The translations under genes were made by a program, and so were the position numbers. 64,000 bases of DNA from positions 100,086 through 164,085 of the forward strand of contig JBFLXJ010000011.1 in assembly GCA_040757085.1 (NCBI GenBank), written 5' to 3'. This DNA is from Bacillota bacterium. Lineage in GTDB: Bacteria > Bacillota > Sulfobacillia > JACIYH01. Of this stretch, positions 33,324 through 45,186 are shown piece after piece (positions within the stretch are counted from its first letter, which is position 1; each line of letters begins with the position of its first letter). The notes under the pieces were generated by a model, which saw only the letters and a program-made list of their open reading frames with translations, did not search any database and was not told the origin of the DNA.

Positions 33324-33395
33324 AATGATGGATAGGCAGACGGGCTGGGGGCCGTGCCCCTGATCACCATGAGACACAGGAGGGAGAGAGACGAC

Positions 33396-34439
33396 GTGAA
33401 GACGGACGTGTTCAAGGGGAGGGACTTCATCTCCGAACTGGAGTACACCCGTGAGGAGATTGAGACCATCCTGGAGGTGGCGTTCCGGCTCAAGGAGGAC
33501 TACGCCATGCGCCGGCCCCACCGGTTGCTGGAAGGTAAGAACATGTTCTTGATCTTCTACAACCGGTCCCTGCGCACCCGCAACAGCTTCGAGGCTGGGT
33601 TTGCCCAGTTGGGCGGGCACGCCAACTACCTGGATGCGGACAAGGTGTACACCCCCGCCATCAAGGGGATGGAGAAGGCATACACCACCGAGCGGGTGGC
33701 GGACGTGGCACGGGTGCTTTCCCGGTACGGTGACGCCATCGCCATCCGCATTTACGGCAAGCCCACCGGATGGGTGTACGGCCGGGGCAACGAGTACATT
33801 CGGGAATTTGCCCGCTGGGCCGACGTCCCCGTGATCAACATGGAAGACGACATGTACCATCCCTGTCAGGCGCTGGCCGACATCATGACCATGAAGGAGA
33901 AGCTGGGTGACCTGAAGGGCAAGAAGATCGTGGTGAGCTGGGCTTACTCCCCGAGTGTGGAGAAGCCGGTGGCGGTACCCCAGAGCGCCATGGCCATTTC
34001 CAGCTTCTTCGGCATGGACATCGTGCTGGCTCACCCCGAAGGGTTTGAGCTGGATCCCATGGTGATCGAGAAGGTGAAGGAGAACCAGCGCAGGTTCGGG
34101 GGCACCTTCGAGATCGTGCACGACATGAAGAAGGCCTTCCGCGATGCCGACGTGGTGTATCCCAAGTGCTGGGGGGTGCTCAAGCACATCCCGCCGCAGG
34201 CCAAAGAGGCGGACTGGGACGCCATCCAGAAGCTGTTTGACGCCAACAAGCACTGGATCTGCGACGAGGAGACCCTGAAGCTCGCCAAGCCTGACGTGCT
34301 GTACATGCACTGCCTCCCGGCAGACCGCGGGTTCGAGGTCACGGACGAGGTAATCGACGGGCCCAACTCCGTGGTGTTTGACGAGGCCGAAAACAGGCTG
34401 CACGCCCAGAAGGCGGTCATGGCGCTCATCATGCAGTAG
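33396..34439 (+). CDS. knotted carbamoyltransferase, YgeW/AOTCase-like
   Basis: 347 residues of the ornithine/aspartate carbamoyltransferase superfamily. Carbamoyl-phosphate site: SLRTR (58-62) and HPCQ (155-158); substrate-side motif HCLP (305-308). The stretch GKKIVVSWAYSPS...VPQ, LAHPEGFELDP and DADVVYPKCW closely resembles E. coli YgeW of the purine-degradation cluster, while the SLRTR variant and C-terminal EVTDEVIDGPNS resemble acetylornithine-type enzymes. The acceptor is therefore uncertain. GTG 33396 gives the conserved M-K-T-D start. It heads the operon behind the sigma-54 promoter, with carbamate kinase next. It may run in the phosphorolytic direction to make carbamoyl phosphate. 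Confidence 0.8.
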   Translation: MKTDVFKGRDFISELEYTREEIETILEVAFRLKEDYAMRRPHRLLEGKNMFLIFYNRSLRTRNSFEAGFAQLGGHANYLDADKVYTPAIKGMEKAYTTERVADVARVLSRYGDAIAIRIYGKPTGWVYGRGNEYIREFARWADVPVINMEDDMYHPCQALADIMTMKEKLGDLKGKKIVVSWAYSPSVEKPVAVPQSAMAISSFFGMDIVLAHPEGFELDPMVIEKVKENQRRFGGTFEIVHDMKKAFRDADVVYPKCWGVLKHIPPQAKEADWDAIQKLFDANKHWICDEETLKLAKPDVLYMHCLPADRGFEVTDEVIDGPNSVVFDEAENRLHAQKAVMALIMQ

Positions 34440-34448
34440 CCCTTGCCG

Positions 34449-34503
34449 GCGGCATCCGGCTGCCGGTAGGGCGGCAACGCACGCCGGCAGCCGGGGATGC
34501 CGC
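34449..34503 (+). terminator. long hairpin between carbamoyltransferase 1 and carbamate kinase
   Basis: GCGGCATCCGGCTGCCGG (34449-34466) pairs with CCGGCAGCCGGGGATGCCGC (34484-34503), an 18-base stem with a 2-base bulge and a 17-base loop. A third partial copy, GCGGGATGCGGCTGCCGG, follows near 34532. With no T run this looks more like an attenuator or mRNA-processing element within the operon than a full stop. Confidence 0.5.
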
Positions 34504-34618
34504 GGGTGGACTCGGGACCGATACGGGTTGCGGCGGGATGCGGCTGCCGGCGAGTGCGGCCCGCAGAGCCACCGGGCGGGGAACAATAGGGCCGACTGGA
34601 GAGCGGGAGGAGCCGGAA

Positions 34619-35563
34619 ATGGATAAGGAGTTGGTGGTTATCGCCCTGGGAGGCAATGCCATCTTGCAGCCCGGGCAGCGAGGTACGGCAGAGGAACAAT
34701 TTGAGAACGTGCGGGCCACCTGCCGGCAGATCGTGACGCTGCTGGCAGAGGGGTACCGGGTCGTGCTGACACACGGTAACGGTCCGCAGGTGGGGAACAT
34801 CATCATCCAGAACCAGGCAACGGATGCGGTACCGGCCATGCCCATGGACGTCTGCGGAGCGAAGAGCCAGGGCATGATTGGCTACATGATTCAGCAGAGC
34901 CTGCATAACGAGCTGGTGCGGCGGGGGATGAACGGCTGGCCGGTGGCCAGCATCGTGACCCAGGTGGTGGTATCGGCGAACGATCCGGCGTTCCAGAAAC
35001 CGACCAAGCCGGTGGGGCCGTTCTACGACGAGGAATATGCCAGGAAGAGGATAGGGGCGGGAGAGAGCTGGATCGAGGACGCCGGGCGGGGCTGGCGCAA
35101 GGTGGTGCCTTCGCCGGACCCGGTGGAGATTGTGGAGCTGGACGCGGTCCGGCAACTGGCGCGCGATCACGCCATCGTGATATGCACAGGTGGCGGTGGC
35201 ATCCCGGTGGTCCGGGAACCGGATGGTACCCTGCGCGGGGTAGAGGCGGTTATCGACAAGGATCTGGGTGGGCAGCGCCTGGCTACGGGACTGGGCGCGG
35301 ACGTGTTTATGATCCTGACGGACGTGGCCGCGGTTGCGGTGGACTGGGGCAAGCCCACACAGCGGTATCTTGCACGCCTCACGGTTGCGGAGGCGAGGGC
35401 GTTGCAGAAAGAAGGGCATTTCAAGCCCGGGAGCATGGGGCCAAAAGTGGAAGCCTGTTGCCGGTTCGTCGAGGCCGGTGGCCGGTGCGCCATCATCGCG
35501 TCGTTGAACCAGGCCCTGGAGGCCCTGGCCGGCAGCGCCGGTACGTGGGTGGTGCCCGCCTGA
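34619..35563 (+). CDS. arcC: carbamate kinase
   Basis: Makes ATP from carbamoyl phosphate and ADP, the energy-yielding end of arginine, agmatine or purine fermentation. Family marks: VVIALGGNAIL at the start, LTHGNGPQVGN, MDVCGAKSQGMIGYM, ICTGGGGIPVV, AVIDKDL and PGSMGPKVEA. 314 residues is standard. ATG 34619 follows GGGAGGAG. It is flanked by two different carbamoyltransferases and no arginine deiminase is present, so the carbamoyl phosphate more likely comes from a purine-derived or other ureido compound; that is inference. Confidence 0.96.
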   Translation: MDKELVVIALGGNAILQPGQRGTAEEQFENVRATCRQIVTLLAEGYRVVLTHGNGPQVGNIIIQNQATDAVPAMPMDVCGAKSQGMIGYMIQQSLHNELVRRGMNGWPVASIVTQVVVSANDPAFQKPTKPVGPFYDEEYARKRIGAGESWIEDAGRGWRKVVPSPDPVEIVELDAVRQLARDHAIVICTGGGGIPVVREPDGTLRGVEAVIDKDLGGQRLATGLGADVFMILTDVAAVAVDWGKPTQRYLARLTVAEARALQKEGHFKPGSMGPKVEACCRFVEAGGRCAIIASLNQALEALAGSAGTWVVPA

Positions 35564-35639
35564 GGTCCCTCCGGGTATTGGAGGCGGCGGGTTCAATTGC
35601 CAATGGCAGTTGGCAGGAGCATTGAGGGGGGAACGAGAA

Positions 35640-36656
35640 ATGTTTGAATTTGAAGGCAAAGACCTTCTGCGTACGCCCGACTGGCCGCGGGAGGCACTCG
35701 ATCGGGTGATCGAGCTGGCCAAGGAGATGAAAGCAAACAGGTTCCATCCCCGTTACCTGGACCTTCTCAAGGGGAAGACCATGCTCATGCTGTTCTACTC
35801 TGAGTCCAGCCGCACCCGGCAATCCTTCGAGGCGGCGATGACCGAGCTGGGTGGTCACGCCCAGTTTCTTGAACCCCAGAAGATGCGCATCCAGACCAAG
35901 ACTTACCGGGGCGAGGTGGTGAAGGATACCGCCCTGGTGATGTCCCGTTACGGCCAGGCGATCGGGATCAGGATTGCGGAGGACAAGCTGAGCTACTACG
36001 GGGAAGGGTACGCCCTTATCAAGGAGTACGCCGACCACGCCACCATCCCGGTGATCAACATGTGCGATGACACCTACCATCCCTGCCAGGCCCTGGCAGA
36101 CCTCATGGCCCTGCAGGAGGCATTCGGGCAAAGAGAATTCCGGGGTAAGAAGTTCCTCCACGTGTGGGGTTACTCGCCCAGCAAGGCCCGGAGCTGGTGC
36201 TCGGTGCAGGAGAGCCTGCTCTTGCAGGCCCGCTATGGTTGGGACATCACCCTAGCCTACCCGCCCGGGTTCGACCTGGATCCCAAGATCATCGAGCAGG
36301 CGAAGTCTTACGCCGCCGAAGCGGGGGGCAAATTCGAGATTACCCACGACCTCGAGGAAGCTTACCGCGGCGCCCATGTGGTATACTCGCGCAACTGGAT
36401 GAGCCCGCGGCGCTATGAGATCGGGATGGAGGAAGAACTGAAGAGCTACCAGCCATACCGGCACTGGTGCACCACGTCGGAACTGATGGCAAAGACTAAC
36501 AACGCTTACTTCGTCCACCCCATGCCGATCGAGCGCGGGTTTGAGGTGACGGACGAAGTGGCCGATTCGGACCGCTCCTTGATCTACGAACAGGCGGAAA
36601 ACCGCCTGCACGTGCAGAAAGCGATACTGGCCCTGGTCCTGGGAGCCCTCAAGTAG
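35640..36656 (+). CDS. second carbamoyltransferase with ATCase-like HPxP motif
   Basis: 338 residues, paralogous to the enzyme at 33396 but clearly different. Carbamoyl-phosphate motifs SSRTR (56-60) and HPCQ (147-150) are intact; the substrate-side motif is HPMP (293-296), as in aspartate carbamoyltransferases, rather than HCLP. The C-terminus ERGFEVTDEVADSDRS..YEQAENRLHVQKA matches its paralogue. The ATG follows GAGGGGGGAACGAG. The changed motif implies a different carbamoyl acceptor. No pyrimidine genes are nearby, so a biosynthetic ATCase role is unlikely. Confidence 0.8.
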   Translation: MFEFEGKDLLRTPDWPREALDRVIELAKEMKANRFHPRYLDLLKGKTMLMLFYSESSRTRQSFEAAMTELGGHAQFLEPQKMRIQTKTYRGEVVKDTALVMSRYGQAIGIRIAEDKLSYYGEGYALIKEYADHATIPVINMCDDTYHPCQALADLMALQEAFGQREFRGKKFLHVWGYSPSKARSWCSVQESLLLQARYGWDITLAYPPGFDLDPKIIEQAKSYAAEAGGKFEITHDLEEAYRGAHVVYSRNWMSPRRYEIGMEEELKSYQPYRHWCTTSELMAKTNNAYFVHPMPIERGFEVTDEVADSDRSLIYEQAENRLHVQKAILALVLGALK

Positions 36657-36675
36657 CAGGCAGGGAGGTATGCGC

Positions 36676-37092
36676 GTGGGGGGAGAGCACGGGGTTCTCG
36701 AGCACTATGAGGTTGATCCCAGGGAGTGCACGGGGTGCCGTTACTGCGAGGCGGCCTGCAGCCTGGAGCACTTCGGCAAAGTGGCTCCTTCCCTGGCCCG
36801 CGTGCGGGTGAGAAGGTACGACGACGGGCGGGACGAGGTGGTGATGTGCCGCAACTGTGCGGACCACCCCTGCGTGGGTTCCTGCCCCACGGGCGCGCTG
36901 GTGTTGCGGGACGGTCACGTCCACCTGGAGCGAGACCTGTGCGTCTCCTGCCGGGCCTGCCAGGAAGCGTGTCCCCACGGAGCGGTGTTCCTCCACCCAC
37001 AGGAAGATTATCCCCTCATCTGCATCCAGTGCGGCACCTGTGCCACCTTTTGCCCGCCGGGGGTGATGCGGCTTGTACGGGTATGCGGGTAG
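36676..37092 (+). CDS. polyferredoxin, four [4Fe-4S] motifs (AOR-linked)
   Basis: 138 residues with four cysteine sets: CTGCRYCEAAC, CRNCADHPCVGSC, CVSCRACQEAC and CIQCGTCATFC, sixteen Cys in all, enough for four [4Fe-4S] clusters. This is the HycB/DMSO-reductase-type electron-transfer subunit often paired with aldehyde ferredoxin oxidoreductases. GTG 36676 is 7 bases after GGGAGG; ATG 36670 is too close to it. The 3' end overlaps AOR 1 by 20 bases, so the two are probably a complex. Cytosolic, no signal peptide. Confidence 0.88.
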   Translation: MGGEHGVLEHYEVDPRECTGCRYCEAACSLEHFGKVAPSLARVRVRRYDDGRDEVVMCRNCADHPCVGSCPTGALVLRDGHVHLERDLCVSCRACQEACPHGAVFLHPQEDYPLICIQCGTCATFCPPGVMRLVRVCG

Positions 37093-38938
37093 AATCCTGC
37101 GGGTTGACCTGACCCGGGGGCAGGTGAAGAAGGAACCCCTGGACGAGAACCTCGTGCGCCGTTTCCTGGGGGGAACAGGATACGCTTCCTGGCTGCTTTA
37201 CCAAGAGGTGGGGCCGGGGATTGATCCCCTGGGCCCGGAGAACAAGCTGTACTTCTTTACGGGGCCGTTCACAGGTACCCTTTGGCCCCAGGGGAACCGC
37301 TATGTGGTCACCACCCGGTCCCCCCTGACCGGCATATGGGGACAAGCTCATGCCGCCGGCCACTGGGCTCCCGCCCTCAAGTTTGCCGGGTACGACGGCC
37401 TGGTCGTGGAAGGGATGGCACCGCGGCCCGTTTATCTGTTCATTGAAGATGAGCGGGTGGACATACGGGATGCCGGTCATCTGTGGGGCAGGAACGTGCA
37501 CGAGACGGAGGACATGCTGCTGGACGCTCACGGGGATGATTGCCGGGTGGCCAGCATCGGGCCCGCAGGTGAAAGGCAGGTGCTCGTGGCCGCCATCGTG
37601 AACGACCGCGACCGGGTGGCGGCGCGGTGCGGCGTGGGTGCCGTGATGGGGGCCAAGCGCCTGAAGGCCATCTGCGTGCGGGGTACGGGCGGGGTGGAGG
37701 TGGCCGACCCTGGCCGCTATCCCGAGTTCTGCCGGCGCATGGTGCAGAAGCTGCTCGACGACCCCATCGCAGGCACCCGGGTGGTCTACGGCACCGCCGG
37801 CCTCATGGAGATCATGTCCGACATCGGGCGGGTGCCCACCTGGAACCTGCGCTCGGGCGTGTTTCCCGCCGCGCGCCGCATCGGAGGCAGGCGCTTGCGG
37901 GACGAGTACCTGCTCAAGCCCCGGGCCGACTTCGCCTGTGCCCAGAGGTGCGGTCGTTACGTGGAGGTGCGGGAAGGCCGCTGGCGCTGCCGCACCGGCG
38001 GGCCCGAATTCGAGACGCTGGCCGCCCTGGGATCCCGGTGCGGGGTGGACGACCTGGAGGCGGTCATTTACGCCGGTTACCTGTGTAACGTGCTGGGGAT
38101 GGACACCATCGGCGCCGGTGCCGTGATATCCTGGGCCATGGAAGCGTGGGAGCTGGGGTTGCTCCCCCGGGAGCTGGTGGGCGATCTGGACCTCAGTTGG
38201 GGCAACGCCCAGACCATGGTGGAGTTGACCCGGCGCCTGGCTTACCGGGAGGGGCTGGGGGACTTCCTGGCAGGCGGGTCGCTGCGGGCCGCGCGAGAAC
38301 TGGGTGCCGAGGCGGAGAAGCTGGTGATGCACGTAAAGGGCATGGAAATCGCGGGCCAGGACCCCCGGGGGCAGAAGTCCATGGGACTGGCCATGGCGAC
38401 TTCCGCCCGCGGTGCCGACCATCTCTACGCATTCCCCGTGCTGGACGAAGGAGGATTCGACGAGGAGATCCGCCGCGTTTACGGCCCGCAGTACATGCCG
38501 GAGATGGCCGACCGCCTGTCGCCCGTGCACAAGGGGCACATGGTGTATGTGAACGAGAACTGGGCGGCGGTGGTGGAGTCGGTGGGGGCATGTAAATACG
38601 GCACCATGGTGCCCCCCACCCTGGGATACGAGGAGGTGGCCGAAGGGTTGGCCCTCACCTGCGGCCTGGAGTACTCGGTTTCTGACCTGGAGAGGCTGGG
38701 CGAACGGGTGGTCAACCTGCAGCGCATGTACAACGTCAGGCTGGGCGTGCGGCGGGCCCAGGATACCCTCCCGGAGCGCCTGCTCAAGGAACCCGCTCCG
38801 GACGGGCCAGCCCGCGGCCAGGTCGTGGAACTGGACTACATGCTGGACGAGTACTACCGGGAGCGCGGGTGGGACCCCGATGGGGTCCCCACCCGGGACC
38901 GCCTGCTGCAACTGGGTTTGCCGGAGCTGGTAACGTGA
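37073..38938 (+). CDS. aldehyde ferredoxin oxidoreductase family protein 1 (cluster Cys replaced by Asp)
   Basis: Tungsten-bispterin enzyme family oxidising aldehydes with ferredoxin. 621 residues with GGTGYASWLLYQEV, GP.TGTLWPQGNRY, GHWAPALKFAGYDGLVVEG, CGVGAVMGAKRLKAI and GMEIAGQDPRGQ. The usual cluster set C-x2-C-x3-C ... C reads D286-x2-C289-x3-C293 ... C507, so the first ligand is Asp. Asp can ligate iron in some [4Fe-4S] proteins, so the enzyme may still be active. TTG 37073 overlaps the ferredoxin gene; the stop overlaps the MoaD-ferredoxin gene. Aldehyde substrate unknown. Confidence 0.9.
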   Translation: MYGYAGRILRVDLTRGQVKKEPLDENLVRRFLGGTGYASWLLYQEVGPGIDPLGPENKLYFFTGPFTGTLWPQGNRYVVTTRSPLTGIWGQAHAAGHWAPALKFAGYDGLVVEGMAPRPVYLFIEDERVDIRDAGHLWGRNVHETEDMLLDAHGDDCRVASIGPAGERQVLVAAIVNDRDRVAARCGVGAVMGAKRLKAICVRGTGGVEVADPGRYPEFCRRMVQKLLDDPIAGTRVVYGTAGLMEIMSDIGRVPTWNLRSGVFPAARRIGGRRLRDEYLLKPRADFACAQRCGRYVEVREGRWRCRTGGPEFETLAALGSRCGVDDLEAVIYAGYLCNVLGMDTIGAGAVISWAMEAWELGLLPRELVGDLDLSWGNAQTMVELTRRLAYREGLGDFLAGGSLRAARELGAEAEKLVMHVKGMEIAGQDPRGQKSMGLAMATSARGADHLYAFPVLDEGGFDEEIRRVYGPQYMPEMADRLSPVHKGHMVYVNENWAAVVESVGACKYGTMVPPTLGYEEVAEGLALTCGLEYSVSDLERLGERVVNLQRMYNVRLGVRRAQDTLPERLLKEPAPDGPARGQVVELDYMLDEYYRERGWDPDGVPTRDRLLQLGLPELVT

Positions 38939-39726
38939 AGGTCAGGGTTAAGGTGGCGGGGCCCCTGCAACAGTTTTACCCGCCGGGCGAGGGGGAGGTG
39001 GAACTCGCCGGGGCTGCGAGCGTGGCGCGGCTCATCGACACTCTGGGGCTGCCCCGCTTCCCTCCCATCGTGGTGGTGGTGAACGGCAGGTACGCGACAG
39101 AAGATACCCTTCTGGCTGACGGAGACCGCGTCTTTCTCCTGTGGCCGGTAGGTGGGGGGCAGGGTGGGGCGTGCCGCAGGACGGGTGCCGGCCGGGGTCC
39201 AGAAGAAGGATTGGTCCAACCGTTAGGGGGGAAGAACGTGCAGAAAGTGCTGCTGGTGTGGCCGGAGAAGTGCACGGGCTGCCGGGTCTGCGAACTCGCC
39301 TGCTCGTGGGAACATGAGAAGGTCTTCAGTCCCGCCCTTTCCCGCATCCAGGTGGTGTCCTGGAAGCGGGAGGGGGTCGATGTGCCCATGGTGTGCCAGC
39401 AGTGCCAGACCGCCCTGTGCATGGAAGCGTGCACGGCCCGGGCCATCAGCCGGGACCCCGACACGGGGGCGGTACTGGTAGACCAGCGGCGGTGCATCGG
39501 GTGTCACATGTGCGTGCTGGCCTGTCCCTTCGGGGGCCCGGCCATCCACCCCGAGACGGGGAAGATCATGAAGTGTGACCTGTGCGGGGGGAACCCCCGC
39601 TGTGCCCAAATGTGCCCCGTGGGGGCCATCGAGTACGTGCGGGCCGACCGGGTGGGGCTGGCGCGGAAGCGGGCCAGCCTGGGCTATCTCACCCGCTACC
39701 TCGAGCTGGCGGTTAAGGAGGGGTGA
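38935..39726 (+). CDS. MoaD-like sulfur carrier fused to a four-cluster ferredoxin
   Basis: One uninterrupted frame of 263 residues. Residues 1-75 are MoaD/ThiS-like (VKVRVKVAGPLQQFYPPGEG, IVVVVNGR, L.DGDRVFLLWPVGGG), ending in the Gly-Gly that normally is the C-terminus. A 26-residue Gly/Arg-rich linker leads into a ferredoxin with CTGCRVCELAC, CQQCQTALCMEAC, CIGCHMCVLAC and CDLCGGNPRCAQMC. A ribosome site (GGGGGGAAGAAC) precedes GTG 39238, so the ferredoxin may also be made alone. Either a true fusion or two overlapping products from one frame. It sits between AOR 1 and AOR 2, whose pterin cofactor needs MoaD chemistry. Confidence 0.75.
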   Translation: MKVRVKVAGPLQQFYPPGEGEVELAGAASVARLIDTLGLPRFPPIVVVVNGRYATEDTLLADGDRVFLLWPVGGGQGGACRRTGAGRGPEEGLVQPLGGKNVQKVLLVWPEKCTGCRVCELACSWEHEKVFSPALSRIQVVSWKREGVDVPMVCQQCQTALCMEACTARAISRDPDTGAVLVDQRRCIGCHMCVLACPFGGPAIHPETGKIMKCDLCGGNPRCAQMCPVGAIEYVRADRVGLARKRASLGYLTRYLELAVKEG

Positions 39727-39728
39727 GC

Positions 39729-41663
39729 GTGGCGTACGGCGGTTACCAGGGGTGCTTTTTGGACGTGGATCTTTCCGCGGGCAGGGTGGAAGCTCACCCC
39801 GTCCCGGAAGAGATGCAGCGCATGTACCTGGGCGGAGACGGGGTGGCGGCCCGCATCCTGTGGGACCAGGTGCGACCGGGGGTCGATCCCCTGGGACCGG
39901 AAAACGTGCTGGTCATAGCCACGGGTCCCCTCACCGGCACCCTGTTTCCTCCCTCGGGACGCTGGATGGCTGCCTCCCTTTCACCCCTCACCTTCCACTG
40001 GGGGGAGGCCCATGCCGGGGGCTTCTTCGGGGCGGAGTTGAAGTACGCCGGTTACGACTACCTGGTGATCCGGGGTAAGGCATCCGAACCGGTCTGGCTT
40101 TGCATCCATGACGGGCGTGCCGAGCTGCGATCTGCTGCCACCCTGTGGGGCAGAACCGTGCCGGAGACCACTGCGGCAATTACCGGTGAACTGGGTGACC
40201 CCGACGTCAAGGTGGCGTGCATTGGTCCGGCCGGGGAGAAGCTGGTGCGGTATGCGGCCATTATGTCCGATTACTGGCGCGCAGCCGGACGCACGGGCAT
40301 GGGAGCGGTGATGGGCTCCAAGAACCTGAAGGCCATTGCCGTGCGGGGGTTTCTGCCCGTGCGGGTGGCAGACCCGGATGGGTTCTGGGCTGCCTGCCAG
40401 GAGGCCCACCGGGCCCACCGCGAGGGAGAGTGGGCCGAGTACGTCCGCCGCACCTCCCGTCGGTACGGCACCACGGGGCTGACGGATGCCATGAACGCCA
40501 TCGGCCGCCTTCCCGTGAAGAACCACCAGGACGGGTACATCCCGGACGTGGAGCGGGTGGGGTGCGAGGCCATCAGGCAAAAGTACCGGGTGGCCCACAA
40601 GTCCTGCTACGGGTGCGCCCTGCAGTGCAAGTACGTCTCCCACGTGCCTTCGGGGCCGTACCAGGGCACCCGTTCTGAGGGTCCCGAGTACGAGACCGTG
40701 GACGCCTGGGGCCCCAACATCCTGGTGTACGACCTGGATGTGGTCATGCGGGCCAACTACCTCTGTAACATTTACGGCCTGGACACCATCTCGGCGGGGG
40801 CGGCCGTTGCCTTCGCCATGGAGCTTTACGAGCGGGGACTGATCGGTAAAGAAGAGACGGGCGGAACGGAGATCCGCTGGGGCGACGGACAGGTGGCGTT
40901 GGATCTCCTGGAGCAGATTGCCCGCCGAGAGGGGTTCGGGCGGCTGCTGGGCGAGGGGTGCGAACTGGCAGCCCGGCAACTGGGTGGCGAGGCCTGGCGC
41001 TATTCCATCTCGGTGAACGGGCTGGAGGCATCGGGCCAGGATCCCCGCTCCCACAAGTCGGTGGGTTGCACGTACGCTACCAACGTGCGGGGCGCCGACC
41101 ACTTGCGCAGTCTTTCCGTCATCGACGAGCTGGGGTTCCGGTCCAAGGCCATCGAGCGTTTCCCGCACCTGGATCCCGGCATCTGTGGTGACCTGCTGGA
41201 CGAGACGTACAAGGGTTACATGGTGGCGGACCAGGAAGAGTGCTTTGCGGTGTGCGATTCCATGATCCTGTGCAAATACGGGGTGATGTGGCCGCCCATC
41301 TACTATTTCCCGGAGTTTGCCCGCGCCATTTCCACCGCCACGGGCATGAGGGAGTATGGGGATCCCGAGGCGGTGCGTCTGCTCGGGCGCCGCATCTGCC
41401 ACCTGCGGCGGGCATTCAACGTGCGACTGGGTTGGGACCGCTCCCGCGATACTCTGCATCCCCGTTTCACGCAGGAGCCCATGCCCAGCGGGCCGGCCAG
41501 GGGCCAGGTCTGCAACCTGGAGCCCATGCTGAGGGAGTACTACGAAGTATTCGGCTACGATCAGGCCACCGGGCTCCCCTACCGGGAAACCCTTGAGCAG
41601 GTGGGGCTTTCGGACGTGGCAGACGAACTGGCCCGTGCGGGCCGGCTGGCGCAGAGGGGGTGA
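39729..41663 (+). CDS. aldehyde ferredoxin oxidoreductase family protein 2
   Basis: 644 residues with all AOR features: LGGDGVAARILWDQV, GP.TGTLFPPSGRW, AHAGGFFGAELKYAGYDYLVIRG, GAVMGSKNLKAIAVRG, canonical cluster cysteines C293-x2-C-x3-C (SCYGCALQC) with the fourth in ILCKYG, then GLDTISAGAAVAFAMELYERG and GADHLR. GTG 39729 is 8 bases after AAGGAGG; GTG 39723 is too close. It follows the MoaD-ferredoxin gene after 2 bases. Its divergence from the other two AORs suggests a different substrate. Confidence 0.93.
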   Translation: MAYGGYQGCFLDVDLSAGRVEAHPVPEEMQRMYLGGDGVAARILWDQVRPGVDPLGPENVLVIATGPLTGTLFPPSGRWMAASLSPLTFHWGEAHAGGFFGAELKYAGYDYLVIRGKASEPVWLCIHDGRAELRSAATLWGRTVPETTAAITGELGDPDVKVACIGPAGEKLVRYAAIMSDYWRAAGRTGMGAVMGSKNLKAIAVRGFLPVRVADPDGFWAACQEAHRAHREGEWAEYVRRTSRRYGTTGLTDAMNAIGRLPVKNHQDGYIPDVERVGCEAIRQKYRVAHKSCYGCALQCKYVSHVPSGPYQGTRSEGPEYETVDAWGPNILVYDLDVVMRANYLCNIYGLDTISAGAAVAFAMELYERGLIGKEETGGTEIRWGDGQVALDLLEQIARREGFGRLLGEGCELAARQLGGEAWRYSISVNGLEASGQDPRSHKSVGCTYATNVRGADHLRSLSVIDELGFRSKAIERFPHLDPGICGDLLDETYKGYMVADQEECFAVCDSMILCKYGVMWPPIYYFPEFARAISTATGMREYGDPEAVRLLGRRICHLRRAFNVRLGWDRSRDTLHPRFTQEPMPSGPARGQVCNLEPMLREYYEVFGYDQATGLPYRETLEQVGLSDVADELARAGRLAQRG

Positions 41664-41667
41664 GGGG

Positions 41668-42846
41668 TTGGCCGATCTGCGGGTGAGGATAGCGGGGATT
41701 GAGTTCCCCAACCCGGTGTTCACGGCTGCCGGGCCCCCCTCCCAGGATGGCGCCGCCCTGCTGCGGGCGGCGGCAGGGGGTGCCGGGGGCCTGGTGTGCA
41801 AGACGGTATCCCTGAAGCCGGCGCCTGTGCCCCATCCGAACATGATGGTTCCCGGGCGCGGGCGCACCATGCACCTCATCTCCGTGGGTGCGGGCGGGGG
41901 GCTGGCCAAAGTGGTACGGGCCGAGTTGCAACTGGGCCAGGCCCTGCTCAACACGGAACTGTGGTCCGACCTGCCCCTGGAGCGGTGGCTGCAGGTGGAG
42001 TATCCCCGCGCCCGCCAGGCCGGGCTGCCCGTGATCGCCAGTATCGGTTACACCGCTGACGAGGTGCGCGAGGTGGGTCCCCGGGTCGAGGCAGCGGGGG
42101 TGGACGCCATCGAGTTTTCCGTCCACTACCTGGGGGGCGCCATCGACCCCGTGCTGGAGACCGCCCGTGCTCTGCGCGATGCCGTCAGCGTGCCCATCTT
42201 CGCCAAGCTTTCCCCCAACGTGCCCGACCTGGTGGCGGTGGCGCGGGCCATTGATCCTTACGTGGACGGGTTCGTGGCTATCAATTCCCTGGGACCGTGC
42301 CTGGACTTCGATCCCGAGAACCCGGCACCTTACCTGGGCAGCAAGCTGGGGTACGGGTGGATATCCGGGGCGCCGCTGAAGCCCCTGGCCCTGCGTTGTG
42401 TGTTCGAGCTGGCGCGGGCTACTCCCAAACCCGTGATCGGGGTGGGCGGGGTGATGAGCGGGCGGGACGCCGTGCAGTTCCTCATGGCCGGGGCGTGGGC
42501 GGTGCAGATCTGTACGGGGGCCATCCTGCAGGGACCGGGGGTGTACGGGCGCGTGGCCGGAGAACTTGCTGCCTGGCTGGACGGCCACGGCTACCGGTTC
42601 CCGGAGGAGATCCGCGGCAAGTACATCCGGGCGGTGGGCGAAGGGCAGGCCGTCAAGTTGGAGGTTACGCCAGCCCGGGTGGATGAGGACCGCTGCACGG
42701 GGTGCGGGCTGTGCGTGCCCAGTTGCCCGGCCCAGGCTATATCTCAGGAGGGCATGCGGCCGGTAAGCGTGGACGAACTCAAGTGCCAGGGTTGCGGGCT
42801 GTGCGGGAGCATCTGCCCGCAGGGTGCCATGAGCCGCCCCTACTGA
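41668..42846 (+). CDS. dihydroorotate-dehydrogenase-like flavoprotein with C-terminal 2[4Fe-4S] ferredoxin
   Basis: 392 residues: an FMN-type barrel (AGIEFPNPVFTAAGP, LPVIASIGYT, GVDAIEFSVHYLGG, PIFAKLSPNVPD, GVGGVMSGRDAVQFLMAGAWAVQICTG) followed by two ferredoxin motifs, CTGCGLCVPSC and CQGCGLCGSIC. The order is that of dihydropyrimidine dehydrogenase PreA. The catalytic N-x-S-C-P-N segment of DHOD and PreA is replaced by F-S-V-H-Y, so normal dihydropyrimidine chemistry is doubtful. The start is TTG 41668 after GGGTGAGGGG. Lying between AOR genes, it may pass electrons between ferredoxin and an organic acceptor. Confidence 0.75.
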   Translation: MADLRVRIAGIEFPNPVFTAAGPPSQDGAALLRAAAGGAGGLVCKTVSLKPAPVPHPNMMVPGRGRTMHLISVGAGGGLAKVVRAELQLGQALLNTELWSDLPLERWLQVEYPRARQAGLPVIASIGYTADEVREVGPRVEAAGVDAIEFSVHYLGGAIDPVLETARALRDAVSVPIFAKLSPNVPDLVAVARAIDPYVDGFVAINSLGPCLDFDPENPAPYLGSKLGYGWISGAPLKPLALRCVFELARATPKPVIGVGGVMSGRDAVQFLMAGAWAVQICTGAILQGPGVYGRVAGELAAWLDGHGYRFPEEIRGKYIRAVGEGQAVKLEVTPARVDEDRCTGCGLCVPSCPAQAISQEGMRPVSVDELKCQGCGLCGSICPQGAMSRPY

Positions 42847-42937
42847 TCCACCCCTACTTACCCGGACCGCCGCCGTCGCCCGTTCATGCTCGCATCGCCG
42901 TGTCATTTGCCGACTACGGAGAGGAGGAGAAGGACCG

Positions 42938-44818
42938 GTGGCAGGGGTTTCGTACCAGGGTACCATCCTGTGGGTGGACCTCAGCCGGGGTACCGTGGAG
43001 GGCAGGACATTTTCCGAATCACTTCAGCGTGCTTACCTGGGGGGCAGGGCACTGGCCGCCCGGCTCCTCTACGACCTGGTGCCACCCCAAGCCGATCCCC
43101 TGGGGCCGGAAAACGTGGTCGTGGTGGCGACCGGACCCATCACCGGCACCCTGGCTCCTGCCTCCGGCCGCTTCACGGTGGCGGCGGTCTCGCCCAAGAC
43201 CGGCCTGATAGGCTACGCCAACTCAGGCGGTCACTTCGGGCCGGAGATGAAGCTGGCGGGATTTGACGCCCTGGTCATCACGGGTTCCAGCCCCGAACCC
43301 GTGTACCTGTACCTGAGCGATGGCAGGGCCGCACTGCTCCCCGCCCGCGAGATGTGGGGACAGGGGTTGTTCCGGACGTGGGCAATGCTGGAGGAAAGGC
43401 ACGGTCCCGGCGTGCACTACCTGGGTATCGGTCCGGCAGGCGAGAACCAGGTGCTGGTATCCGCAGTGATGAACGACGGCTGGGATGCGCAGGCACGTCC
43501 TGCCCTGGGGGCGGTGTGGGGGGCCAAGAAGCTGAAGTGCATTGCGGCCCATGGCACCGGGAAGGTGAAGGTGGCTGACCCGGAGGGTTTTCTGGATGCG
43601 GTGCGGGACGCCTACCGCAAAATCATGGCCGACAAGACGTACCCCGATTTTTCCAAGTACGGGACCTCTATCCTGGTAGACATCGCCCAGGCCAGCGGCG
43701 GGCTTTCTACCCGCAACGCCCAGGAGGGCGTGTTCGAGCACTACGACCGCATATCCTCGCGTCGGATGCACGCTGACCACACGGTGGGGAAAAAGGCTTG
43801 CTGGGGGTGTCCCCTCCACTGCAAGAACTACGTGGAGGTGAGGAGCGGCCCCTACCGGATGCGGGGTGGGGGACCGGAGTACGAGACCCTGGTGTGCCTG
43901 GGGTCGCGAGTGGGGCTGGGCGACCTGGGAGCCATCCTGTACGCCAACCACATCTGCAACGACCTGGGGCTGGACACCATCTCGGCCGGTACGGCCATTT
44001 CCTTCCTGATGGAAGCGTCCCAGCGTGAGCTCATCCCGGAGAGGCTCCCCTGGGGGGATGCCCAACTGGTCATCGACCTCCTGAAGAAGATGGCGTACCG
44101 GGAGGGGTTGGGGGAACTGGCCGGGCAGGGGGTGGCCCGCCTGCGCCAGGCCATCGCCGGTTCGGACGAGTTCGCCCTCGAGGTGAAGGGTCTGGAACTT
44201 CCCGCCTTTGACGTGCGCACGGGAAAGGGCTTCGGGTTGTCTGAGGCAACTGCCAACCGGGGAGGGGACCACCTCACCGCGCTACCCAATTTTGAACTGC
44301 TGGGGATGAGCGAGCAGGAAGGAGAGCACTGGTTCGGGAATCCTTATTGCGTTGATCCGTATACGGAGCGGGGCAAGGTTCCCATGGTCCTCTGGCACGA
44401 ATACTTTGCCATGCTGTGCGACTCCGCAGAAATATGCAAGTACACCACCTTTGCCACGTACGCCCTGTTGCCCCGGGATTTGGCCCGTTTCATCACCCTG
44501 GCGACGGGTGAAGAACGGACGGAAGCAGAGTTGATGTATCTCGCCGAGCGGGCCTACAACCTGGAGCGGCTGTTCAACATCCGCAGGGGGATGGTCCCGG
44601 CCCGGGACGATCGCCTGCCCCGTCGATACACTCGCGACCCGCTTCCGCACGGGCCGGCGCGGGGTCAGGTGGTCCATCTGGAAACCATGCTCCCCGAATA
44701 CTACCGGGCCCATGGCTGGGACCAGCGGGGAGTACCTTTGCCCGAAACCCTGCGCCGTCTGGGTCTGGATAAAGAGGCTGCCCAGGCGCTGGGGGGTGGC
44801 ACCGGGCAGTGCGGGTGA
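42938..44818 (+). CDS. aldehyde ferredoxin oxidoreductase family protein 3
   Basis: 626 residues. LGGRALAARLLYDLV, GPITGTLAPASGRF, SGGHFGPEMKLAGFDALVITG, canonical cluster cysteines from C288 (ACWGCPLHC) with the fourth in EICKY, GLDTISAGTAISFLMEA and NRGGDHL. The start is GTG 42938 with GAGGAGGAGAAGG upstream, after a 91-base gap with no clear promoter. The end overlaps the second MoaD-like gene by 10 bases. The sequence between motifs differs widely from AOR 1 and 2, so substrate is again probably distinct. Confidence 0.93.
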   Translation: MAGVSYQGTILWVDLSRGTVEGRTFSESLQRAYLGGRALAARLLYDLVPPQADPLGPENVVVVATGPITGTLAPASGRFTVAAVSPKTGLIGYANSGGHFGPEMKLAGFDALVITGSSPEPVYLYLSDGRAALLPAREMWGQGLFRTWAMLEERHGPGVHYLGIGPAGENQVLVSAVMNDGWDAQARPALGAVWGAKKLKCIAAHGTGKVKVADPEGFLDAVRDAYRKIMADKTYPDFSKYGTSILVDIAQASGGLSTRNAQEGVFEHYDRISSRRMHADHTVGKKACWGCPLHCKNYVEVRSGPYRMRGGGPEYETLVCLGSRVGLGDLGAILYANHICNDLGLDTISAGTAISFLMEASQRELIPERLPWGDAQLVIDLLKKMAYREGLGELAGQGVARLRQAIAGSDEFALEVKGLELPAFDVRTGKGFGLSEATANRGGDHLTALPNFELLGMSEQEGEHWFGNPYCVDPYTERGKVPMVLWHEYFAMLCDSAEICKYTTFATYALLPRDLARFITLATGEERTEAELMYLAERAYNLERLFNIRRGMVPARDDRLPRRYTRDPLPHGPARGQVVHLETMLPEYYRAHGWDQRGVPLPETLRRLGLDKEAAQALGGGTGQCG

Positions 44819-45186
44819 AGCTGCGCAATTACGGGTACTACGCCGACCTGCTGGGAGGGCCGCTGGTGGAACTGGAGATCCCGGGCAGCACCCTGGGGGA
44901 TCTCTTTACGGCCATCAGGTCCCGGTTCGGGGTCGACCTCGGGGCGCGGCCTAACCTGCGGCTGATCGTGGGAGAGAAGGTTTTACACTCTTTTCCCGCG
45001 GGGTTCAGGCTGGAAGAGGGTGCGGAGGTGGCCATCGTTCCGGTGGTGGCAGGAGGAGATTGGGTTGTGCGGGAGGAGGTGAGTATGGGACGGCGTTCGG
45101 TGGTGTCTCGGCATCGGGGAACGGCCATTCGTTCTGCAAGAGGGGAGGAGAGGGAATGCACCGGAGGATACTCGTCACCGGGCTGA
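44809..45186 (+). CDS. MoaD/ThiS-like protein with an extended tail
   Basis: 125 residues. Residues 1-83 form a ubiquitin-like carrier (VKLRNYGYYADLLGGPLVELEI, LGDLFTAIRSRFGVDL, LIVGEKVL, GAEVAIVPVVAGG), ending in Gly82-Gly83, normally the C-terminus that becomes thiocarboxylate. Here another 42 residues follow before a stop, the last ones overlapping the next gene's start by 31 bases. The tail is low in recognisable structure. GTG 44809 overlaps AOR 3; GTG 44815 is an alternative. Probably serves tungsten- or molybdopterin synthesis for the AORs, if the tail is removed or tolerated. Confidence 0.7.
   Translation: MRVKLRNYGYYADLLGGPLVELEIPGSTLGDLFTAIRSRFGVDLGARPNLRLIVGEKVLHSFPAGFRLEEGAEVAIVPVVAGGDWVVREEVSMGRRSVVSRHRGTAIRSARGEERECTGGYSSPG

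Follow-up and report, generated by a model that had tools for sequence, protein, structure and literature searches.

The AorABCDE operon of Aromatoleum aromaticum EbN1 encodes a tungsten-dependent aldehyde oxidoreductase (AOR) along with the MoaD-like proteins AorD and AorE (PMC6365974). WorX, a protein whose exact function has been described as unknown, is likewise the product of a ThiS-like gene adjoining the WorL and WorS genes (PMC13328260). In 2006, Iyer, Burroughs and Aravind listed MoaD along with AOR and a 4Fe-S ferredoxin in tungsten operons and proposed the release of ThiS/MoaD from fusions by JAB domains (PMC1779556). In Deinococcus, DRJAMM cleaves a MoaD-MoaE fusion and is required for activation of the fusion (PMC8832034).

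Here, we analyzed a 64,000-nucleotide stretch of a Bacillota genome (hereafter, the window) in which, as in AorABCDE, genes for an AOR large subunit, a four-cluster small subunit (AorA in that operon) and MoaD-like proteins are found together, but whereas the MoaD-like proteins and AorA of AorABCDE are encoded by separate genes, the window carries their counterparts in one joined frame (PMC6365974). Also unlike AorABCDE, the window cluster has genes for three large subunits of AOR; an AorC was not found among the genes examined. WorX resembles the window carrier in its genomic position, yet it is a separate gene, whereas the window carrier reads through into a WorS-like frame (PMC13328260). 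The Deinococcus MoaD-MoaE protein, which is cut by DRJAMM (DR0402), shares with the window protein the Gly-Gly followed by an in-frame partner and a JAMM gene in the same genome; in the window, however, the partner is a ferredoxin rather than the functional partner MoaE, the fusion occurs in a single genome, and its cleavage is predicted (PMC8832034). The window fusion most likely works like a JAMM-processed MoaD fusion. Among the fusions that Iyer and colleagues describe in the text consulted, the MoaD-ferredoxin combination found here does not occur (PMC1779556).

The joined frame, its constituent parts, the two flanking large-subunit genes and the second MoaD gene of the cluster all lie on the forward strand. 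An AOR/WOR large subunit with PF02730 and PF01314 domains is encoded upstream (37073..38938), with its stop overlapping the moaD start, and a second one with the same two domains (39723..41663) overlaps the ferredoxin stop. A third AOR large subunit is encoded at 42938-44818, and the second MoaD of the cluster at 44809..45186 (PF02597, 26.2 bits); in the latter, the Gly-Gly codons (45052-45057) are followed by a 42-residue tail, to which the tails of 19 and 89 residues in the orthologs from two further genomes within this genus (G001 and G002, hereafter, the congeners) are unrelated. The genes from 35610 to approximately 46270 are in the same order in both congeners. The region 33354-44818 comprises, in addition to the three AOR genes, a four-cluster ferredoxin gene (36670-37092) and a gene for a PreA-like flavoprotein with a ferredoxin domain (41593-42846). 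All of these are preceded by carbamoyltransferase-like and carbamate-kinase-like genes (both assigned by eye), an arrangement suggestive of a nitrogen-compound catabolic cluster.

The open frame 38935-39726 is uninterrupted over 263 codons and comprises a MoaD/ThiS-family sulfur carrier domain, a linker and a ferredoxin, in agreement with the first-pass annotation, which had described a MoaD-like carrier ending in Gly-Gly-Gly in frame with a four-cluster ferredoxin. The carrier domain (38935..39159, 75 codons), which has an orthologous moaD in both congeners, matches PF02597 (ThiS) over residues 5-75 with 39.4 bits against a cut-off of 22.5, covering profile positions 1-76 of 76, that is, the full length of the beta-grasp domain. 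The ferredoxin (residues 102-263) contains 16 cysteines arranged in four CxxC-type motifs, with the Fer4 families of Pfam matching residues 150-233. Its best solved relative is AorA from the A. aromaticum AOR (8c0z chain C; E 2e-44), aligned with query residues 98-247, and thus starting near the GTG codon at 39238 (residue 102). With four cysteine motifs, a relationship to AorA and AOR large subunits adjoining it (37073-38938 and 39723-41663) in the same order as in the congeners, the ferredoxin has the features of an AorA/WorS-type small subunit. In a whole-chain structure prediction made from seven sequences, the model was poor (mean pLDDT 50.8), with a strand-helix-strand pattern in residues 1-70 (block pLDDT 64-85) and a low-confidence linker (24-29).

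MoaD function requires a free C-terminal glycine. The functional C terminus of the carrier in its relatives corresponds to the GGG codons at 39151..39159 (residues 73-75), but in the window, another 188 residues follow, so that no free Gly-Gly end is encoded, although one may be produced by processing. Given that the carrier fits the ThiS/MoaD profile but, as encoded, lacks the free end, we file it as a probable JAMM-processed precursor form rather than a new protein family.

Comparison with the congeners locates the change that joined the two genes. In both, moaD ends in LLWPAGGG with TAG as the next codon, and the ferredoxin is encoded by a separate gene; the spacer of G002, the contig of which was also recovered by a contig scan (JACIYH010000021.1), is 57 nt long and contains two more stops in the moaD frame, and that of G001 is 122 nt long and out of frame. 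After the spacer, both congeners have GGGGGGAGAGAGC, followed by the ferredoxin GTG, the same start as in the window. In the nucleotide alignment, the TAG of both congeners corresponds to CAG (Gln76) at 39160..39162 of the window. Because both congeners share the GGG-TAG, a spacer, and the same ribosome site and GTG, two separate genes are most simply the ancestral state within the genus, with one stop codon lost in the window. The suspicion of a missed frameshift voiced in the first-pass annotation did not hold: in the alignment, it is the stop codon that has changed (TAG to CAG), and a shift within the G run yields no stop directly after the Gly-Gly. The ferredoxin is 94-97% identical to its counterparts in the congeners, compared with 67-70% for the MoaD part.

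The ferredoxin gene (39238..39726), a predicted four-[4Fe-4S] protein, has retained its own GTG start, in frame with moaD, along with a G-rich ribosome-binding site, AGGGGGG (39225..39231), the position of which is conserved in both congeners (GGGGGGAGAGAGC-GTG). The duplex of this site with the anti-Shine-Dalgarno sequence has a predicted energy of -9.8 kcal/mol, a value that roughly 8% of random positions attain. Initiation within the joined frame, at GTG 39238, which had been raised as one way out of the missing free glycine end, is thus backed by a start and ribosome site conserved across the genus genomes compared. The former intergenic spacer of 75 nt (39163..39237) now forms 25 linker codons, and 26 linker residues lie between the GGG and the ferredoxin start; this spacer can be aligned with those of the congeners only beside the ribosome site. 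Shuffled spacers of the same length and composition were stop-free in 60% of cases which, multiplied by the one-in-three chance of matching frames, implies that about 20% of stop losses at this position would join both genes. Hence, the join is weak evidence of function.

Across 398 genomes of the phylum, 88 encode a ferredoxin related at an E value of 1e-30 or better. Among the matches listed, only that of the window covers the MoaD domain free of stops, with the others mostly beginning near query residues 92-108, and no other case of the same fusion was found. A conserved fusion is excluded by the relatives, the genome contigs and the 398 phylum genomes, and the separate genes in both congeners leave no stable architecture in the genus. 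The MoaD-ferredoxin join is best read as a private stop loss, and the covalent-tethering role considered earlier is not supported, the fusion being private to one genome and its linker being without a relative in the two congeners.

The window genome (G000) encodes, at C2:116783-117103, a Prok-JAB protein (57.8 bits) with the complete E + HSHx7SxxD motif of JAMM proteases (GEACG and YHSHPAGPATLSPVD), although its gene is not located beside the AOR operon. Such a protein is encoded in all three genomes of the genus, and the JAMM motif is present in both of the sequences inspected. ThiF-family enzymes are encoded in the window genome as well. Furthermore, six of its nine ThiS/MoaD matches extend beyond the Gly-Gly, comprising MoaD-MoaE, MoaD-ferredoxin and MoaD-dihydrodipicolinate-synthase-like fusions and carriers with tails of 9, 12 and 42 residues; the MoaD-MoaE fusion contains the sole MoaE match of the genome. 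Another carrier ends in tails of 12, 0 and 39 residues across the window genome and the congeners. Because the tails of orthologs are unrelated in both sequence and length, they look unconstrained, which is most readily understood if they do no harm or are cut off.

Other carriers that continue into a neighboring domain were encountered. At G000:C17:257908-259119, a MoaD directly following an AOR gene has an in-frame dihydrodipicolinate-synthase-like partner, and the junction lacks a start codon; the same gene order and fusion (57% identity) occur in a second family (G030), in which the junction does contain ATG codons. In congener G001 (C9:92084-92593), two tandem MoaD domains, each ending in Gly-Gly, share one frame, with a 39-residue tail on the second, and at G020:C28:18143-18322, the carrier frame runs past the Gly-Gly into an apparent nitrilase-family hydrolase (assigned by eye).

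To relate carrier tails to the protease, we read the C-terminal ends of 220 PF02597 carriers, 150 from the class of the window organism and 70 from a second class, all of them best-scoring matches rather than a random draw; JAMM was called by PF14464 searches, with at least 44 bits taken as present and approximately 20-32 bits as absent. With the cut-off of at least 2 residues, which was set after a one-residue subfamily had been seen, tails were found in 80 of the 130 carriers from genomes with JAMM, but in only 1 of the 90 from genomes without it (Fisher 1e-23, a value that is too small given that the genomes are related). Counted by genome, 37 of 40 with JAMM and 1 of 33 without have such tails, with both JAMM states occurring within only one family of the sample. 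The lone JAMM-negative case is a MoaD-MoaE fusion from a genome that is 81% complete, in which a JAMM gene may have gone unassembled. Within the second class, there is a weak contrast (2/11 with JAMM, from two genomes only, vs. 0/59 without; p 0.023) that disappears when any tail is counted (p 0.65); most carriers from its JAMM-encoding genomes are tail-free. A single residue after the Gly-Gly seems to need no JAMM, given that another nine carriers from JAMM-negative genomes extend exactly one residue beyond it, seven of these forming one ThiS-like subfamily ending in NMGGG plus V or A. GC content was rejected as an explanation for the long tails: in the first class, the association with JAMM persists at a downstream GC of at least 0.6. 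We found no earlier report of an association between JAMM and tails in the literature, within which subscription papers were mostly beyond reach. The pattern suggests that tails are tolerated because the protease of the cell can trim behind the Gly-Gly.

The main rival to processing is that the stop loss disabled moaD, leaving a dead MoaD domain on the ferredoxin and a moaD that is turning into a pseudogene, while other carriers serve the cofactor pathway. The nine ThiS/MoaD carriers of the genome, another of them within the same cluster, speak for such a loss, and the MoaD part has seven window-only nonsynonymous codons, compared with one and three in the congeners, so that constraint may have been lost to some extent. 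Nevertheless, the frame is intact, the GGG and the domain match are kept, the window-only codons are more often synonymous than nonsynonymous (11 to 7), and the genome has a predicted trimming protease with the JAMM motif; on balance, we regard disablement as unlikely. Less likely again is that the C at 39160 is an error of sequencing, assembly or strain mixture masking a true TAG between two ordinary genes. A single base change would give the arrangement of the congeners, and the genome is assembled in 34 contigs, but no single odd base stands out because the codons around 39160 carry several other substitutions relative to the congeners, and a real stop loss would be unremarkable because tails after the Gly-Gly are frequent both in this genome and in its genus.

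The least likely reading, which we consider very improbable, holds that the fusion is functional as a covalent unit, with the carrier tied to the ferredoxin so as to dock at the oxidoreductase or to couple the supply of the cofactor with that of the electron-transfer subunit. The frame is indeed open, the two partners are components of one enzyme system, and a MoaD fused behind AOR is noted for Azoarcus by Iyer and colleagues (PMC1779556). However, the fusion is shared by no relative among the matches listed in the 398 phylum genomes, stops occur in the congeners both at the junction and beyond it, with one spacer breaking the frame, and the ferredoxin retains its own start. Similarly improbable is the idea that the uncut protein docks on the oxidoreductase through its ferredoxin, such that release by JAMM would link carrier activation to the assembly of the electron-transfer subunit.

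We favor, as reasonably probable, the explanation that moaD and the AorA/WorS-type ferredoxin gene are two genes that lost the stop between them, with the ferredoxin made from GTG 39238 and the read-through MoaD trimmed by JAMM. The two genes of the congeners, the lost stop, the conserved GTG and ribosome site, the unrelated spacer and the JAMM gene can be read directly from the genomes. Under this explanation, ribosomes initiating at GTG 39238 would produce a normal small subunit for the neighboring tungsten aldehyde oxidoreductases, whereas initiation at 38935 would yield a 263-residue MoaD-linker-ferredoxin precursor. Cut after the GGG by the JAMM metalloprotease, this precursor would give rise to a normal MoaD plus a ferredoxin extended by 26 residues at its N terminus, and the freed glycine end would then be activated by a ThiF/MoeB-type enzyme so that sulfur can be passed on to the tungsten pterin. 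Given the complete JAMM motif, the sole MoaE being part of a MoaD-MoaE fusion, the six extended carriers out of nine, and the survey, it is probable that JAMM rescues the read-through MoaD by cutting behind the glycines; cleavage at this point, as proposed in the first-pass annotation, fits the evidence. With a JAMM protease present, the position of the stop behind the Gly-Gly would be under little selection in this lineage, so that tails and read-through fusions could come and go.

In the two classes sampled, tails of at least 2 residues are almost confined to JAMM-encoding genomes, and the survey constitutes a genome-scale, quantitative test of the 2006 proposal that JAB proteins release such carriers. 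The association would allow the organisms that mature their carriers by cleavage to be predicted from sequence, and would flag which of the "odd" MoaD fusions are probably precursors rather than new enzymes.
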